A stretch of DNA of 32,798 nt from IMG/VR virus record IMGVR_UViG_3300032334_001169, positions 1 through 32,798 of that record; one strand, 5' to 3'. A program made the translations under genes and the position numbers. The notes below the pieces were generated by a model, which ran no database searches, had not been told where the DNA came from, and saw only the letters and a list, made by a program, of their open reading frames with translations. The DNA is from a virus. Positions 22,677 through 32,499 of the stretch are shown here, piece by piece (position 1 is the stretch's first letter; every line of letters starts with the position of its first letter).

Positions 22677-22700
22677 GAAAAAAATATAAAAACGATTTTG

Positions 22701-22774
22701 TGGACCCAACAGGACTTGAACCTGTGACCCTCGCATTATGAGTGCGGTGCTCTAACCAACTGAGCTAAAGGTCC
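22701..22774 (-). tRNA. tRNA-Met(CAT)
   Basis: The minus strand folds as GGACCTT acceptor, D arm, anticodon loop CTCATAA (CAT), and T arm ACAGG-TTCAAGT-CCTGT. CAT could be elongator Met or a lysidine-modified Ile-2 tRNA; the sequence alone does not decide. It has no encoded CCA. Confidence 0.9.
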
Positions 22775-22779
22775 AATAG

Positions 22780-22851
22780 TACTCGGTAGGGGAGTCGAAC
22801 CCCTCTTTCTAGGATGAAAACCTAGCATCCTAACCGATAGATGAACCGAGC
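22780..22851 (-). tRNA. tRNA-Glu(TTC)
   Basis: The anticodon loop is TTTTCAT (anticodon TTC) on stem CTAGG/CCTAG, with T arm AGGGG-TTCGACT-CCCCT. The acceptor pairs GCTCGGT with ACCGAGT. Spacing to its neighbours is only a few bases, consistent with one transcript for the cluster. Confidence 0.92.
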
Positions 22852-22855
22852 AATT

Positions 22856-22928
22856 GTTACCCCCCAGAGATTCGAACTCCAATTAACTGGACCAAAACCA
22901 GTTGTCCTGCCGTTAGACGAGAGGGTAA
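22856..22928 (-). tRNA. tRNA-Gln(TTG)
   Basis: The anticodon loop is TTTTGGT (anticodon TTG) on stem ACTGG/CCAGT. The acceptor pairs TTACCCT with GGGGTAA, and the T arm uses two G-U pairs. The discriminator is C, which is unusual for Gln. All other features are canonical. Confidence 0.88.
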
Positions 22929-22929
22929 G

Positions 22930-23008
22930 TTAAGGGAGAGAACCCCTTAGTGTTGTTGGCACTCAGTCAAAGCCACTATATAACATTCCTTTCTCAAGGG
23001 AACAACAC
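22930..23008 (-). ncRNA. Structured RNA between tRNA-Gln and tRNA-Trp
   Basis: An 8-bp outer stem (GTGTTGTT with AACAACAC, 22950-22957 with 23001-23008) closes two inner hairpins. One is CCTT-GAGA-AAGG, a GNRA-tetraloop hairpin; the other is GGC...GCC. A further AAGGG...CCCTT hairpin follows at about 22931-22947. There is no tRNA anticodon or T-loop pattern. It may be a processed small RNA or a rearranged tRNA remnant. Confidence 0.45.
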
Positions 23009-23012
23009 TTTG

Positions 23013-23083
23013 CAGATGTGAATGGATTCGAACCACTATCAAAGGTTTTGGAGACCTTTATTCTGCCATTGAACTACACACCT
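23013..23083 (-). tRNA. tRNA-Trp(CCA)
   Basis: The anticodon loop CTCCAAA holds CCA on stem AAGGT/ACCTT. The acceptor pairs AGGTGTG with CACATCT, discriminator G. The T arm is AGTGG-TTCGAAT-CCATT. Confidence 0.9.
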
Positions 23084-23094
23084 AATTTGCTAGG

Positions 23095-23145
23095 TCACCA
23101 CCACCACCTAACATGAGGAGATTTAACGTGATTTCTTTCTTGCAC
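23095..23145 (-). other. Spacer with a 16-codon frame ending in three Trp codons
   Basis: In the spacer between tRNA-Ser and tRNA-Trp, a GTG at 23145 lies 12 nt after AAAGGAGG and opens a 16-codon frame ending TGG TGG TGG TGA, 11 bases before tRNA-Trp. It may be a leader peptide sensing tryptophan supply. It is as likely to be chance, since the end is a simple GGT repeat. Confidence 0.2.
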
Positions 23146-23194
23146 GAGAAGAGCAGGCCTCCTTTGTTCACGAACCTGAATTGGTATTAAGGTG

Positions 23195-23279
23195 TGGAAG
23201 ATGTAGGATTCGAACCTACGGTACCTTGTAGTACAACAGTTTTCAAGACTGCCGCGATCGACCACTCTGCCAATCTTCC
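23195..23279 (-). tRNA. tRNA-Ser(TGA)
   Basis: This class II tRNA has acceptor GGAAGAT/ATCTTCC, anticodon loop CTTGAAA (TGA), a long variable arm (GTACTACAAGGTACC region) and T arm GTAGG-TTCGAAT-CCTAC. Confidence 0.92.
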
Positions 23280-23289
23280 GAAAAAGACT

Positions 23290-23306
23290 CATAAGCAGTT
23301 CTTATG
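23290..23306 (-). other. Short hairpin in the tRNA spacer
   Basis: CATAAG and CTTATG pair around a five-base loop between tRNA-Ser and the initiator-like tRNA. No clear U-run follows, so it is more likely a processing or spacer hairpin than a terminator. Confidence 0.35.
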
Positions 23307-23328
23307 GTATGCTTACAAGTACATTTAG

Positions 23329-23399
23329 TTGCGAACCTAGGACTCGAACCTAGAACTCTGGGTTATGAGCCCAATATGTTACCATTACACCAACTCGCC
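23329..23399 (-). tRNA. tRNA-Met(CAT), initiator-like
   Basis: The anticodon stem is TTGGG/CCCAG around CTCATAA, giving three consecutive G-C pairs next to the loop. The acceptor pairs cleanly at positions 2-7 but 1-72 is a G-A mismatch. Both are hallmarks of initiator tRNA. The D stem has U11-A24, unlike most bacterial initiators. The T arm is CTAGG-TTCGAGT-CCTAG. Confidence 0.8.
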
Positions 23400-23404
23400 A
23401 TTTG

Positions 23405-23477
23405 AGCCACCTGACGGACTCGAACCGCCGACCACCTCATTACAAGTGAGGAGCTCTACCAACTGAGCTAAGGGGGC
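23405..23477 (-). tRNA. tRNA-Thr(TGT)
   Basis: The anticodon loop CTTGTAA holds TGT on stem CCTCA/TGAGG. The acceptor is GCCCCCT/AGGTGGC with discriminator T. The T arm is GGCGG-TTCGAGT-CCGTC. Confidence 0.92.
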
Positions 23478-23482
23478 AATTT

Positions 23483-23638
23483 TTACTTTACTAAAGTAGA
23501 ATCCATTGATACTGAATCACAACAAGCTGAATCAACACAAGTTGTGTCTGTAGTAGTTGTGTCTGTAGGAGTAGAGGTAGTTTCGTTTGAGCAAGAAGCC
23601 AAAGTAACTAAAGCAGCGATAATAAATAGGTTTTTCAT
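23483..23638 (-). CDS. Tiny Cys/Thr-rich lipoprotein
   Basis: This 51-residue protein starts MKNLFIIAALVTLASC and has a lipobox (LASC, Cys 16). The mature part is Thr/Ser/Asp-rich (TTSTPTDTTTTDTTCVDSAC) with three more Cys in its short span. It sits between tRNA genes, with an ATATTTATAA motif 5 nt before the ATG. Surface or periplasmic anchoring is expected; no function is known. Confidence 0.75.
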   Translation of the reverse strand: MKNLFIIAALVTLASCSNETTSTPTDTTTTDTTCVDSACCDSVSMDSTLVK

Positions 23639-23643
23639 GTGTT

Positions 23644-23653
23644 TTATAAATAT
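23644..23653 (-). promoter_or_regulatory. Candidate late motif ATATTTATAA
   Basis: The motif ends 5 nt before the ATG of the tiny lipoprotein gene, inside the tRNA region. Confidence 0.4.
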
Positions 23654-23661
23654 ATAATTTT

Positions 23662-23775
23662 TTAATTTTTGTTTTTTCCTCTATAAGTATCTGTTTGAGC
23701 ATGACAGTTAGGACATATTATTTCTAAATTAGAAATATGATGATTATGTCTATTACCATTTATCGTATCTATTAG
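23662..23775 (-). pseudogene. HNH endonuclease C-terminal remnant
   Basis: The minus strand encodes DTINGNRHNHHISNLEIICP then NCHAQTDTYRGKNKN and a stop at 23662. The N-H-H-I-S-N-L-E and C-P-N-C-H pattern is the end of a homing-type HNH nuclease. The upstream part, which should hold the first His, is replaced by tRNA-Leu, with no gap. The gene is therefore broken. Such nucleases often travel with phage tRNA clusters. Confidence 0.7.
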
Positions 23776-23858
23776 TGCCTTGGGTGGGACTTGAACCCAC
23801 AAGAGCTAAGCTCAACGGTGTTTAAGACCGTCTTGTTTACCAATTTCAACACCAAGGC
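23776..23858 (-). tRNA. tRNA-Leu(TAA)
   Basis: This class II tRNA has acceptor GCCTTGG/CCAAGGC, discriminator A, anticodon loop CTTAAAC (TAA), variable arm and T arm GTGGG-TTCAAGT-CCCAC. Its 3' end abuts the HNH remnant. Confidence 0.9.
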
Positions 23859-28993: not shown

Positions 28994-29491
28994 TCAATCT
29001 AGTTTTCCATACTCATTCCCCATATCAATAATCAACCCAATAGCATCATTTAAGTCAATATCAAAAAACTCGCGGTCGGCTCGAGATCTTAAATCAGCCA
29101 ACACAACATGAATTGCTTGCTCAAAATCATAGGGACGAGCACACTTGTAGGCATAGGCAAGCTCCCAATCATTAACCACACCGGCAGAATTTATTTGATG
29201 AAGTCGTTTTTCGGGAGAGGAGGTAGTCATACCAATCTTACACTTGTTGGGATAAGCCTTATTTACAAGTATATAAACATATCCACCCAAACGATTACGC
29301 GGGGATTCATTATCCAGGTGTGATCCTATATAACGATAATACTCAACATTATCCCAACCATCAAAAGAGGGTATACGGGTAAAATGGGTTGCCCCTTGAA
29401 AATTAGTCCCACCCAAGCTATTATGTTTAACAGTAATATGGATATACTGTTTGTTATCCTTTAGCTCCTCGGGTGTTATATATTGTATCAT
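28994..29491 (-). CDS. GIY-YIG (T5orf172-type) domain protein
   Basis: I place the start at the ATG at 29491, giving 165 residues, because it forms an ATGA overlap with the upstream stop. The protein has the GIY-YIG scaffold: GGYVYILVNKAYPNKCKIGM, then SPEKRLHQINSAGV with the expected Arg, a conserved acidic residue in FEQAIHVVLADLR, and EFFDI. GIY-YIG nucleases cut DNA, and the T5orf172 type is common in phages and mobile elements. It could act on host DNA or as a selfish element. Target unknown. Confidence 0.75.
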   Translation of the reverse strand: MIQYITPEELKDNKQYIHITVKHNSLGGTNFQGATHFTRIPSFDGWDNVEYYRYIGSHLDNESPRNRLGGYVYILVNKAYPNKCKIGMTTSSPEKRLHQINSAGVVNDWELAYAYKCARPYDFEQAIHVVLADLRSRADREFFDIDLNDAIGLIIDMGNEYGKLD

Positions 29492-29670
29492 AACGATTGA
29501 TTTATGGTTTGTGCTACCTTGGGCCAATCAATGGTGGTAGTTAATATAATACCGTGTTTAACGCGTATAAACGCCTCAAAACGTGCCTTATAGTCATCAC
29601 ACGGGACGGACTTAATAGAGTCCATACATTGGGGACTATTCTGGATTATATTAATTACTTTGTAAGTCAT
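29488..29670 (-). CDS. Small unknown protein
   Basis: This 60-residue protein starts at the ATG at 29670 (MTYKVINIIQNSPQCMDSIK), with an upstream TTG being a less likely start. It overlaps the preceding gene by 20 nt and the next by ATGA, a tight early operon. It may be a host-takeover peptide, but nothing supports a specific function. Confidence 0.55.
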   Translation of the reverse strand: MTYKVINIIQNSPQCMDSIKSVPCDDYKARFEAFIRVKHGIILTTTIDWPKVAQTINQSL

Positions 29671-30911: not shown

Positions 30912-31454
30912 TTATTTTATTTCAAATCCCATCCAAACCGAACGATATAATCCAACTGCATTTTCTCCTGTATTGGCATATAACACTCCATTTACAACCG
31001 CTACTGCATGACCTTGAACGATTAATACAAATCGACCTACTGGATTATTTTCCATGAATGATTTTAATGTATAACCTGTGGCTTTTTTATATTGCTTGTT
31101 TACCAATATTTTACTTGAACCGATTCTACTGTTAATACCCTCTTTTGATGGGTGGGTTCCAATGTAACTAACTTTGTAACCGTTTTTTGTTTTACCAATA
31201 ATGTTTTTACTGTATTTTACTGTAAACGTACCTTTACGATCCTCACGTTGCATATTCTTTTTAACCCAAGCGTGTGCTTGGTCATATGAAATATCTAAGG
31301 CACCCATAAATGCTCTTACTACACAATCTCTATCTTCTTTTTTAGCTAACTCACTCTGTCTTCTAGAAATTTTTATAGTATCAACAAATAATGCTGACTT
31401 AATAACCTCAATTTCTTTACCCCAATGATTTATTTTTTCTGTAACTTGCATCAT
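30912..31454 (-). CDS. Papain-like cysteine protease candidate
   Basis: I choose the ATG at 31454, which follows the conserved GGTT leader end, giving 180 residues. C44 (KEDRDCVVRAFMGALDISYD), H149 (VQGHAVAVVNGV) and N161 (LYANTGEN) form a possible papain-like triad in the usual order and spacing. Such enzymes in phages can cut host or virion proteins. No signal peptide is present. It has its own promoter (31477-31508). Catalytic residues are read by pattern only. Confidence 0.55.
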   Translation of the reverse strand: MMQVTEKINHWGKEIEVIKSALFVDTIKISRRQSELAKKEDRDCVVRAFMGALDISYDQAHAWVKKNMQREDRKGTFTVKYSKNIIGKTKNGYKVSYIGTHPSKEGINSRIGSSKILVNKQYKKATGYTLKSFMENNPVGRFVLIVQGHAVAVVNGVLYANTGENAVGLYRSVWMGFEIK

Positions 31455-31476
31455 AACCATTATTATTAATATGTCA

Positions 31477-31508
31477 TAAATATACGTATATACTTTGCGA
31501 TAGCCAAA
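31477..31508 (-). promoter_or_regulatory. Host-type promoter, protease-like gene
   Basis: The element is TTTGG-N20-TATATTTA, with the leader ending GGTTATG. Confidence 0.7.
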
Positions 31509-31798
31509 TTTCTTTAAAAGACTTTCGGATCGCTTTTACGGCTTTCCGTAAAAATTTCCCTATAGTGAAACGTGGATTCATTTGGGGGGCATCGTATGGG
31601 ATCGTATATTTGTATATATTTGTCGATGGGTTGTACCTATAGTCGATATAGTTTTTGCGCTAAGTCCCTTTTCCGCCGTATACCCGCGCGTATGGACAAC
31701 GGCGCGCGTGGTGCTATATTAGGTACCTACGCGGTATATATACCGGCCGGCATACCCACGTACTACCCCCCGTCCCCGTACTACCTACCCAACAGGGG
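31509..31798. other. GC-rich, palindrome-rich gap without a convincing gene
   Basis: This stretch is locally richer in G+C than its surroundings. It holds perfect palindromes (TAGGTACCTA, GGTATATATACC, CCGGCCGG), two CGCGCG patches, and a minus-strand G-rich run with G4, G6 and G3 tracts. A frame of 98 codons on the plus strand overlaps a minus-strand gene and has un-phage-like codons, so I do not accept it. Origin, protein-binding array or recent insertion are all possible. Confidence 0.5.
31534..31553. terminator. Hairpin near the protease promoter
   Basis: TTTTACGG and CCGTAAAA pair perfectly (8 bp) around CTTT. The stem ends are A/T-rich on both sides, so it could act in either direction. 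Confidence 0.45.
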
Positions 31799-31906
31799 TT
31801 ATTTACCTGCCATAGTATACAGGGCAATCACCAGTACCGCACCCATGGCTGCCACCATAAAAATGTAAATCGCTCCAATGATGGATTGTTTGATCATATC
31901 TTTCAT
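31799..31906 (-). CDS. Micro membrane protein, 35 residues
   Basis: This 35-codon gene (MKDMIKQSIIGAIYIFMVAA start) has one long hydrophobic segment reaching about residue 32 and a short Gly-Lys end. Its leader ends AAATGTTATG, near the conserved leader. It lies just downstream of tRNA-like element A and likely belongs to the same transcript as the array. Function unknown. Confidence 0.6.
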   Translation of the reverse strand: MKDMIKQSIIGAIYIFMVAAMGAVLVIALYTMAGK

Positions 31907-31921
31907 AACATTTATTTTTAG

Positions 31922-32026
31922 TAGTCAGGACAGGATTCGAACCTGTAAGTGGGTTTATTTGTTTCACTCTTATATCACCCTTTCATATGATCTTTTAGAT
32001 AGCGTCTACCATTCCGCCACCTGACT
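31922..32026 (-). tRNA. tRNA-Leu-like element A, variable core, no clear anticodon arm
   Basis: Shell: acceptor AGTCAGG/CCTGACT, D arm GCG-loop-CGC with AATGGTA, T arm ACAGG-TTCGAAT-CCTGT, discriminator A. The shell is near-identical to elements B and C. The 55-nt core has a TATC/GATA stem around 21 nt and an AGTG/CACT hairpin but no 5-bp stem with a 7-nt anticodon loop. Leu-type D arm, 105 nt total. Confidence 0.6.
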
Positions 32027-32034
32027 ATTTTGTT

Positions 32035-32130
32035 TTAGTTTTTTAATTTATCAACTTCTTTTTTAAGGAGGTAAATTGCATAAAAAGAAAATACATTCAT
32101 CACTAAACTCAAGATCATAAGGTATTCCAT
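32035..32130 (-). CDS. Micro membrane protein, 31 residues
   Basis: This 31-codon gene (MEYLMILSLVMNVFSFYAIY start) is one membrane segment followed by a short basic tail, LLKKEVDKLKN. It sits between tRNA-like elements A and B, 9 bases from A and 17 from B. If the elements are cut by tRNA enzymes, this message would be freed from the transcript. Function unknown. Confidence 0.6.
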   Translation of the reverse strand: MEYLMILSLVMNVFSFYAIYLLKKEVDKLKN

Positions 32131-32146
32131 AGTTTTTTAATTTTAG

Positions 32147-32238
32147 TAGTCAGGACAGGATTTGAACCTGTATGAGAGTAAACCATTCCTTTTATCTCTC
32201 TGTCTGTTAACTAGCGTCTACCATTCCGCCACCTGACT
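32147..32238 (-). tRNA. tRNA-Leu-like element B, variable core, no anticodon arm
   Basis: The shell is the same as in element A, with T loop TTCAAAT. The 42-nt core forms a single long hairpin, GAGAG-A-TAAA/TTTA-CTCTC, after a 13-nt unpaired stretch. No anticodon stem-loop can be drawn. 92 nt total. Confidence 0.6.
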
Positions 32239-32245
32239 ATATTTG

Positions 32246-32317
32246 CTGATTAATAAGGATTTGAACCTTAATCCTGAGCTCCAGTTACGGTCTCTGTGCA
32301 CCATTACACTATAATCA
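32246..32317 (-). tRNA. Degenerate tRNA-like element D
   Basis: The acceptor TGATTAT/TTAATCA and T arm TAAGG-TTCAAAT-CCTTA are good, and the D arm is acceptable. The anticodon arm has only 3 of 5 pairs; a loop GTAACTG would give anticodon AAC, but this is uncertain. A decaying tRNA or a non-translational tRNA-like RNA. Confidence 0.5.
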
Positions 32318-32366
32318 ATCGAGAGTTTCGAACCTCTCAGCATTAGGGTAATTAATCCTAATGTTT
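32318..32366 (-). ncRNA. tRNA 3'-half-like remnant E
   Basis: A 7-bp hairpin CATTAGG/CCTAATG with a 9-nt loop is followed by a T-arm-like GAGAG-loop-CTCTC containing TTCGAAA. No matching 5' acceptor strand is present, so it looks like a truncated tRNA or part of the array. Confidence 0.4.
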
Positions 32367-32367
32367 G

Positions 32368-32499
32368 TAGTCAGGACAGGATTCGAACCTGTATTATACG
32401 TCTATATCAACTCGGTGGGATTTTTACCCACATCTACTGGCGGTTTTCCATTGCTTTTCAACCTACGAGTTAGCGTCTACCTATTTTCGCCACCTGACT
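32368..32499 (-). tRNA. tRNA-Leu-like element C, largest variable core
   Basis: The shell is the same as in A and B, with a slightly altered D loop. The 80-nt core is a three-way junction: AACTCG/CGAGTT (32409-32414 with 32466-32471) encloses hairpins GTGGG-TAAAAAT-CCCAC and GGTT/AACC. Its 5-bp stem with a 7-nt loop is anticodon-arm-like but lies deep in the core. 132 nt total, first of the array after the promoter. Confidence 0.6.

Follow-up and report, generated by a model that had tools for sequence, protein, structure and literature searches.

The question raised by one end of a viral DNA fragment is whether three genes with the ends of a leucine tRNA are tRNAs at all, and, if not, what they might be. 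The window analysed here is the whole of IMG/VR virus record IMGVR_UViG_3300032334_001169, a virus contig of 32,798 nt that is itself a fragment, and all of the RNAs discussed lie on its minus strand. Three elements, A, B and C, were found to keep the acceptor stem, D arm, T arm and elbow pair of a tRNA around a near-unique core that replaces the anticodon and variable arms. The conserved part is referred to as the shell. The elements, together with the ordinary tRNA genes of the same phage used as a comparison set, are as follows.

31922..32026, minus strand: element A, a tRNA-Leu-like shell with a 55-nt core (Rfam tRNA model 38.1 bits with the anticodon stem skipped; folding; core recurs in stretches L085 and L186)
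32147..32238, minus strand: element B, a tRNA-Leu-like shell with a 42-nt core (Rfam tRNA model 39.6 bits; ARAGORN; folding)
32368..32499, minus strand: element C, a tRNA-Leu-like shell with an 80-nt core (parsing and folding)
22700..23858, minus strand: ordinary tRNA cluster (Met, Glu, Gln, Trp, Ser, Met, Thr, Leu; ARAGORN)

On the 5' side each element reads AGUCAGG, U8 and G9, followed by a Leu-type D arm ending in GACGC, and on the 3' side ACAGG-UUCRAAU-CCUGU is followed by CCUGACU-A. The 3' end appears on the plus strand as the repeat TAGTCAGGACAGGATT at 31922, 32147 and 32368, exactly where the initial annotation had placed it and at the lengths given there. The distance from the end of the D stem to the start of the T stem was 55 nt in A, 42 nt in B and 80 nt in C, in agreement with the core lengths of 42, 55 and 80 nt first reported. 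The absence of a 5-bp anticodon stem in the normal position was also borne out, the best arm of 5 bp with a 7-nt loop near that position having 3/5 pairs in A, 3/5 in B and 2/5 in C. The minimum free energy folds of A and B contained the acceptor, D and T arms together with other hairpins in the core, which in B is GAGAG-A-UAAA / UUUA-CUCUC. Element C folded with the same three arms, and a 5-bp pairing of AACUC with GAGUU around an insert of approximately 50 nt was seen in the centroid fold only. Pseudoknots, which the folding programs are unable to display, may be present in some elements. A covariance-model comparison had been proposed; the Rfam tRNA model matched A and B at 38–40 bits by skipping the anticodon stem, C was not reported, and there was no match to transfer-messenger RNA (tmRNA). 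ARAGORN called only B, as Leu(CAG).

The shell was found to belong to a large family. The exact 24-nt 3' half was present in at least 120 viral-contig stretches, often several times per contig, as part of shells around unrelated cores, which is what the search of related phages proposed in the initial annotation was meant to look for; the contigs compared are fragments and their hosts are inferred. The shell matches and their relatives were parsed into 203 distinct elements of 54–191 nt, whose cores formed 168 sequence clusters, 144 of them singletons. The reversed shell pattern gave no match in 50 records. This recurrence excludes chance repeats and sequencing error, including the possibility that the elements are ordinary tRNA-Leu genes misread in this contig. 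Up to nine elements per phage were seen, with nine AGUCAGG shells lying within 3.2 kb of stretch L017. The window's region had no match among GenBank phages, and the two shell halves were never both present in any of the listed isolates. In a species collection covering bacteria and archaea (84,980 species) the 3' half occurred in only 10 stretches, of which nine were oversized shells in contigs of metagenome-assembled genomes and one was a 3' partial copy; the contigs are probably from phages. The shell family is therefore a phage feature, and inheritance from bacterial chromosomes was rejected on the same evidence. The relatives are T4-like myoviruses near Flavobacterium phage immuto, whose baseplate protein is 45% identical to that of the window; an immuto-like capsid protein was found in 21 of 50 shell-bearing records, clearly in 16 (44–68% identity over long stretches) and weakly in the rest.

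Across this family the body of the tRNA was retained and the anticodon arm was lost. Of the features that define a decoding tRNA in the Rfam model (RF00005), the 7-bp acceptor, the D arm, U8 and the T arm with a UUCRA loop were present, and the 5-bp anticodon arm with a 7-nt loop was not. A full 5-bp/7-nt arm in the normal place was detected in 8 of 152 core representatives, compared to 4.0 expected by shuffling, while the identical test detected it in 43 of 44 tRNA-Leu genes from the same loci and in 161 of all 206 ordinary tRNAs parsed. The acceptor was fully paired (7/7) in 193 of the 203 elements. The D-loop GG was present in 148 of 168, in keeping with the tertiary contacts of a tRNA elbow, and the Levitt pair 15-48 was A-U in 130 elements, G-C in 9, A-C in 8 and G-U in 4 (Fisher p = 1.6e-7, with one element per core cluster, a sampling in which the relatedness of the shells remains). 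In the F1-core family, comprising 23 elements found through their core, 99.8% of cells were in standard pairs and double changes were seen in 9 of 19 pairs, compared to 1.3 in shuffles, none of 500 of which reached this value; four of the nine lay in the acceptor, four in the T stem and one in the core. A C followed the element in 165 of 171 shells and in 221 of 222 ordinary tRNA genes, and the U-1 context of the shells was that of ordinary tRNA genes in these phages. Such ends would suit cutting by RNase P and completion of the CCA tail, which suggests that the elements could be matured as tRNAs. The ordinary tRNA-Leu genes of these phages share with the shells the D arm and loop, U8, A14, A15-U48, the T loop, the discriminator A, C74 and the U-1 context. 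They differ in that their anticodon arm is constant (43/44) while their acceptor and T stems vary, the opposite of the shells. An ordinary tRNA-Leu with a shifted anticodon was considered and rejected, since the ARAGORN calls on shells were scattered over many anticodons.

The behaviour of the cores was examined at the site of element A, which is marked in relatives by a small gene and by a neighbouring anchor gene.

31799..31906, minus strand: open reading frame for a 35-aa membrane peptide, directly behind element A (marker of the orthologous site in relatives)
30912..31460, minus strand: 182-aa gene, phrog_3754, of unknown function (anchor for finding relatives)

In the window the peptide gene is preceded by element A, with B, C and a degenerate tRNA-like gene further upstream. 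At the same site, with the peptide gene conserved behind it, one unrelated element was found in L129 and another in L130, from phages with baseplate proteins 95% and 92% identical to that of the window, respectively. Stretch L131 retained the peptide gene and the gene order with no shell; its record gave no baseplate match, and its distance was judged from a 72% identical 182-aa neighbour. Element A itself recurred in L085, identical at 103 of 105 positions, in a phage with a baseplate protein only 51% identical, and a close copy with the same core was found in L186, whose phage is 49% identical in the same protein. A 39-nt block of the B core was unchanged in L240, L241 and L242. The shell in L242 was the same, L241 carried a D-loop insert, and L240 carried another, unrelated D-loop insert together with an acceptor that had been fully replaced and yet remained paired (GACCGAG/CUCGGUC). 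For element C, a 22-nt piece of the core was not found in viral contigs. Some copies of the F1 core were accompanied by a D-loop insert and others lacked one, and two unrelated cores had a D-loop insert in common (90% identity over 80 nt). D-loop lengths were bimodal, with 219 elements at 8–14 nt and 19 at 21–92 nt, and the D loop is thus a second insertion slot. Because the B and F1 cores and the inserts recur in changed combinations, the acceptor, the D-loop insert and the core are separate, independently assorting modules. Near-identical phages exchange cores, and distant phages have cores in common. The early suggestion of a cassette family, constant at the ends and variable in the centre, has strong support from the 168 core clusters, the turnover at this site and the shuffling of modules, and we hold this description of a retained tRNA body with modular cores, taken as a whole, to be close to certain.

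What the cores do is less firmly settled. The explanation that best fits the data, and one that we consider somewhat better than an even bet, is that the genes A, B and C specify non-coding RNAs that have a tRNA-Leu chassis, are matured as tRNAs and carry interchangeable effector domains. The chassis would allow the host to mature the RNA as a tRNA, with RNase P cutting at U-1 and CCA being added to the encoded C74, and would protect it from decay. Leucine charging of the chassis is plausible, because in Escherichia coli the leucyl-tRNA synthetase (LeuRS) recognises its tRNA without reading the anticodon. The variable core would be the working part, an RNA domain binding a target of the host or of a rival phage, most likely one involved in defence or takeover, and an arms race would drive turnover of the repertoire. 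The retention of a core across distant phages argues against free drift, and its turnover between near relatives argues for fast-changing selection; this pattern of turnover and sharing would be typical of anti-defence and takeover genes. An effector function on a chassis is given an even chance. A combinatorial tRNA scaffold with two slots, the D loop and the anticodon/variable arm, giving each phage a small repertoire of RNA effectors against defence systems or rival phages, is proposed more tentatively, and an anti-defence role in particular is more tentative still. If this were true, such repertoires would be an RNA counterpart of the accessory islands of anti-defence proteins. Of the roles first suggested for the elements, regulatory RNAs with tRNA-like ends come closest in kind.

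Several observations weigh against this explanation. The cores folded slightly better than their shuffles (mean z -0.52, standard error 0.08), so that their structure is on average only weakly above chance, and only one F1 core pair covaries. No core matched a known RNA family in Rfam, where tRNA alone reached a relevant score, and no motif was shared among the cores, with only D-arm remnants standing out; a common type of target is therefore unproven. The constancy of the shell sequence is also partly a matter of ascertainment, because most elements were found by exact shell match. Recurring cores searched for without the shell gave a view independent of this bias. In favour of the explanation, cores are conserved within a family, with 85% identity outside the search pattern compared to 91% in the shell.

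If instead the tRNA body were the working part, the elements would be translation-inert decoys or sinks for enzymes acting on the acceptor, T or D arm, and the core would only remove decoding and then drift. The enzymes proposed are nucleases that cut the tail, Cas12a3 among them, and toxins that act on charged tRNA; alternatively, LeuRS or EF-Tu would be titrated. The retention of the body with loss of the anticodon arm fits this proposal. Defences directed at tRNA are also common, an example being Cas12a3, which makes contact with the acceptor and T arm and cleaves the CCA tail (PMC12851939). A free core would vary, however, and the 39-nt block of the B core was unchanged in four contexts although just 22 nt of it were searched; the F1 cores are conserved across 44 stretches, and cores of 50–140 nt are needlessly large for a decoy, making this explanation unlikely. 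Decoys for anticodon nucleases, as originally suggested, are unlikely in that form because the arm that such enzymes cut, present in 43/44 ordinary tRNA-Leu, is absent. A slightly smaller probability is given to antisense or guide RNAs stabilised by a tRNA, in which the core would pair with host or competitor RNA. A hypervariable, weakly structured sequence in a constant stabilising frame would suit that role, but the phage's own locus showed no excess of complementarity or identity to the cores (longest exact match 9.37 nt, compared to 9.45 nt in shuffles), and the compensatory change in a core helix points to a fold.

The shells might also act as RNase P and RNase Z sites that split polycistronic transcripts, with the cores as filler. 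Elements began within 80 nt of the stop of a long open reading frame in 36% of cases (median 10 nt), compared to 23% for ordinary tRNAs, and a start codon followed within 60 nt (median 21 nt) in 51% compared to 37%. In L129 (9572-9574) and L130 (9566-9568) the start codon lies 1–2 nt past the shell discriminator, so that the mRNA for the small membrane peptide would be leaderless once the 3' end of the shell had been matured. Ordinary tRNAs would nevertheless do equally well, L131 keeps the gene order with no element, and the conserved, swapped and horizontally shared cores are left unexplained; processing, which had been among the original suggestions, may be a side effect of the tight fit between genes and is improbable as the function itself. 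Decaying pseudogenes or junk spread by tRNA-gene recombination are rated a little lower again. The short blocks shared between shells are natural recombination sites, and a fusion of this kind in T-even phages is shown by Escherichia phage AV115, but decay would be expected to strike the shell too, and the acceptors paired at 7/7 in 193/203 elements, the 15-48 covariation, the compensatory changes and the conserved cores are contrary to it. Least probable of all are tRNA-Leu genes with introns or permuted arms that give a normal tRNA after excision. Element C is able to pair AACUC with GAGUU around its large insert, but a 5-pair stem anchored after the D arm was found in 82 of 152 elements compared to 65.5 in shuffles, and canonical arms were near chance. 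Among the 168 core clusters there was no constant intron or junction, Rfam gave no match to group I or other ribozymes, and ordinary tRNA-Leu genes are already present in these phages. The related idea of tRNAs with small insertions found no support, as no anticodon stem is left and the cores are unrelated.

When the elements were compared with known systems, the closest RNA in architecture was RNA C of phage T4 (species 1 RNA, rnaC, NC_000866 70908-71046), which is 139 nt long and lies next to tRNA genes. As in the shells, a T arm, CCGGGUUCGAAUCCCGG, and an acceptor-like helix, here an imperfect one, close the molecule, and long hairpins replace the anticodon arm. It is a stable RNA made during infection (PMC9697503), a late RNA validated by Northern blotting and of unknown function (PMC9697503; PMC3014915). 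Unlike the shells, RNA C does not show a recognisable combination of U8, D arm and 7-bp acceptor, and no sequence homology to the shell was found. It is also conserved, with at least 80% of it present in 692 phage records, mostly at 95% identity or more, and no core swaps were seen. The likeness is best regarded as an architectural analogy, both being tRNA-like ends on a core lacking an anticodon arm in a tRNA-rich phage region. In AV115 (L209 751-832) an annotated tRNA-Asn is fused within the T arm to the 3' end of a T4-type rnaC, and it is because of this fusion that its T stem and acceptor look broken. The hint from this gene that RNA C derives from tRNA-Asn was rejected for the same reason.

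The annotated tRNA-Cys of Flavobacterium phage immuto (NC_055915 20246-20331; L187) is also shell-like, with 84 nt, a paired acceptor and T arm, and a fold in which the anticodon arm is absent; its T-arm/acceptor end recurs in 18 viral contigs. It differs from the shells in its acceptor (AAUCGGU/ACCGAUU), its discriminator C and its single copy, and its annotation as an ordinary tRNA is probably a misannotation. In tmRNA a tRNA-like acceptor/T domain likewise closes an RNA lacking an anticodon arm. Neither ARAGORN nor Rfam gave a tmRNA match, and the shells differ in being far shorter, in keeping the D stem and in having U-A rather than G-U at pair 3-70. The RNA anti-CRISPRs (Racrs) are small, diverse and mobile phage RNAs that act on host defence (PMC10651486). 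These mimic CRISPR repeats, and tRNA is unmentioned in that account (PMC10651486).

T4 thus already provides one phage RNA with a tRNA-like end and an unknown role. What would be new are modular, hypervariable effector cores on a tRNA body, and no description of such an RNA family was found in the literature searched, although journal coverage was partial and preprints lay outside the search, so that a prior description is possible. If the RNAs are made, they would form a very diverse class of phage non-coding RNA, one that has been overlooked because gene finders miss the elements or call odd tRNAs with random anticodons. They would also supply natural RNA domains already selected for action on bacterial targets, show that the tRNA scaffold of biotechnology has a precedent in nature, and give the old question of the role of T4 RNA C a testable form. 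Phage immuto, isolated on a Flavobacterium strain, makes the family testable now.

Other tRNA-like genes were observed in the contigs compared. In L017 (1-3500, of a 62-kb virus contig) approximately 3.2 kb with little coding sequence is occupied by the nine shells, by further shells that have different acceptors, by ordinary tRNAs and by intergenic blocks that recur, one of them common to L043; together they form an array of structured RNA genes. A 104-kb contig (L143 and L145) contains one complete shell, of which the 3' 38 nt alone are repeated on the opposite strand at a distance of 68 kb. A seemingly ordinary 71-nt tRNA-Lys (UUU) in L046 (13031-13101, minus strand) has the acceptor and T arm of the shells and is possibly a source or product of a shell. 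A separate family of tRNA-like elements of 139–153 nt was seen in L151, L153, L177, L023 and L124; its acceptors, for example GGCUCUA/UAGAGCC, show compensated variation. The same is true of the acceptors in a family of 156–176 nt in L019, L042, L054 and L089, which has a Leu-like D arm, a D-loop insert, a long variable region and what may be a 5-bp/7-nt arm whose loop contains GUC.

Two further features lie between elements B and C in the window, the first being a fourth tRNA-like gene absent from the initial annotation.

32246..32317, minus strand: degenerate tRNA-like gene with acceptor UGAUUAU and no clear anticodon arm (Rfam tRNA model 27.6 bits, below the gathering score)
32318..32366, minus strand: hairpin CAUUAGG..CCUAAUG, then a T-arm-like hairpin, GAGAGGUUCGAAACUCUC (read from the sequence; the same hairpin pair, with covarying letters, in L017)

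The degenerate gene has a counterpart with a different core in L017 at approximately 1650-1730 on the minus strand. The interval of approximately 320 nt that separates the 182-aa gene from the peptide gene (31480-31800) is G+C-rich, contains palindromes such as CCGGCCGGTATATATACC and is strongly conserved in L129 and L130 with no obvious gene; it is possibly a regulatory or replication element. Positions 28994-29527, near the variable region, encode a protein with a homing-endonuclease-like domain (phrog_18411, phrog_681).
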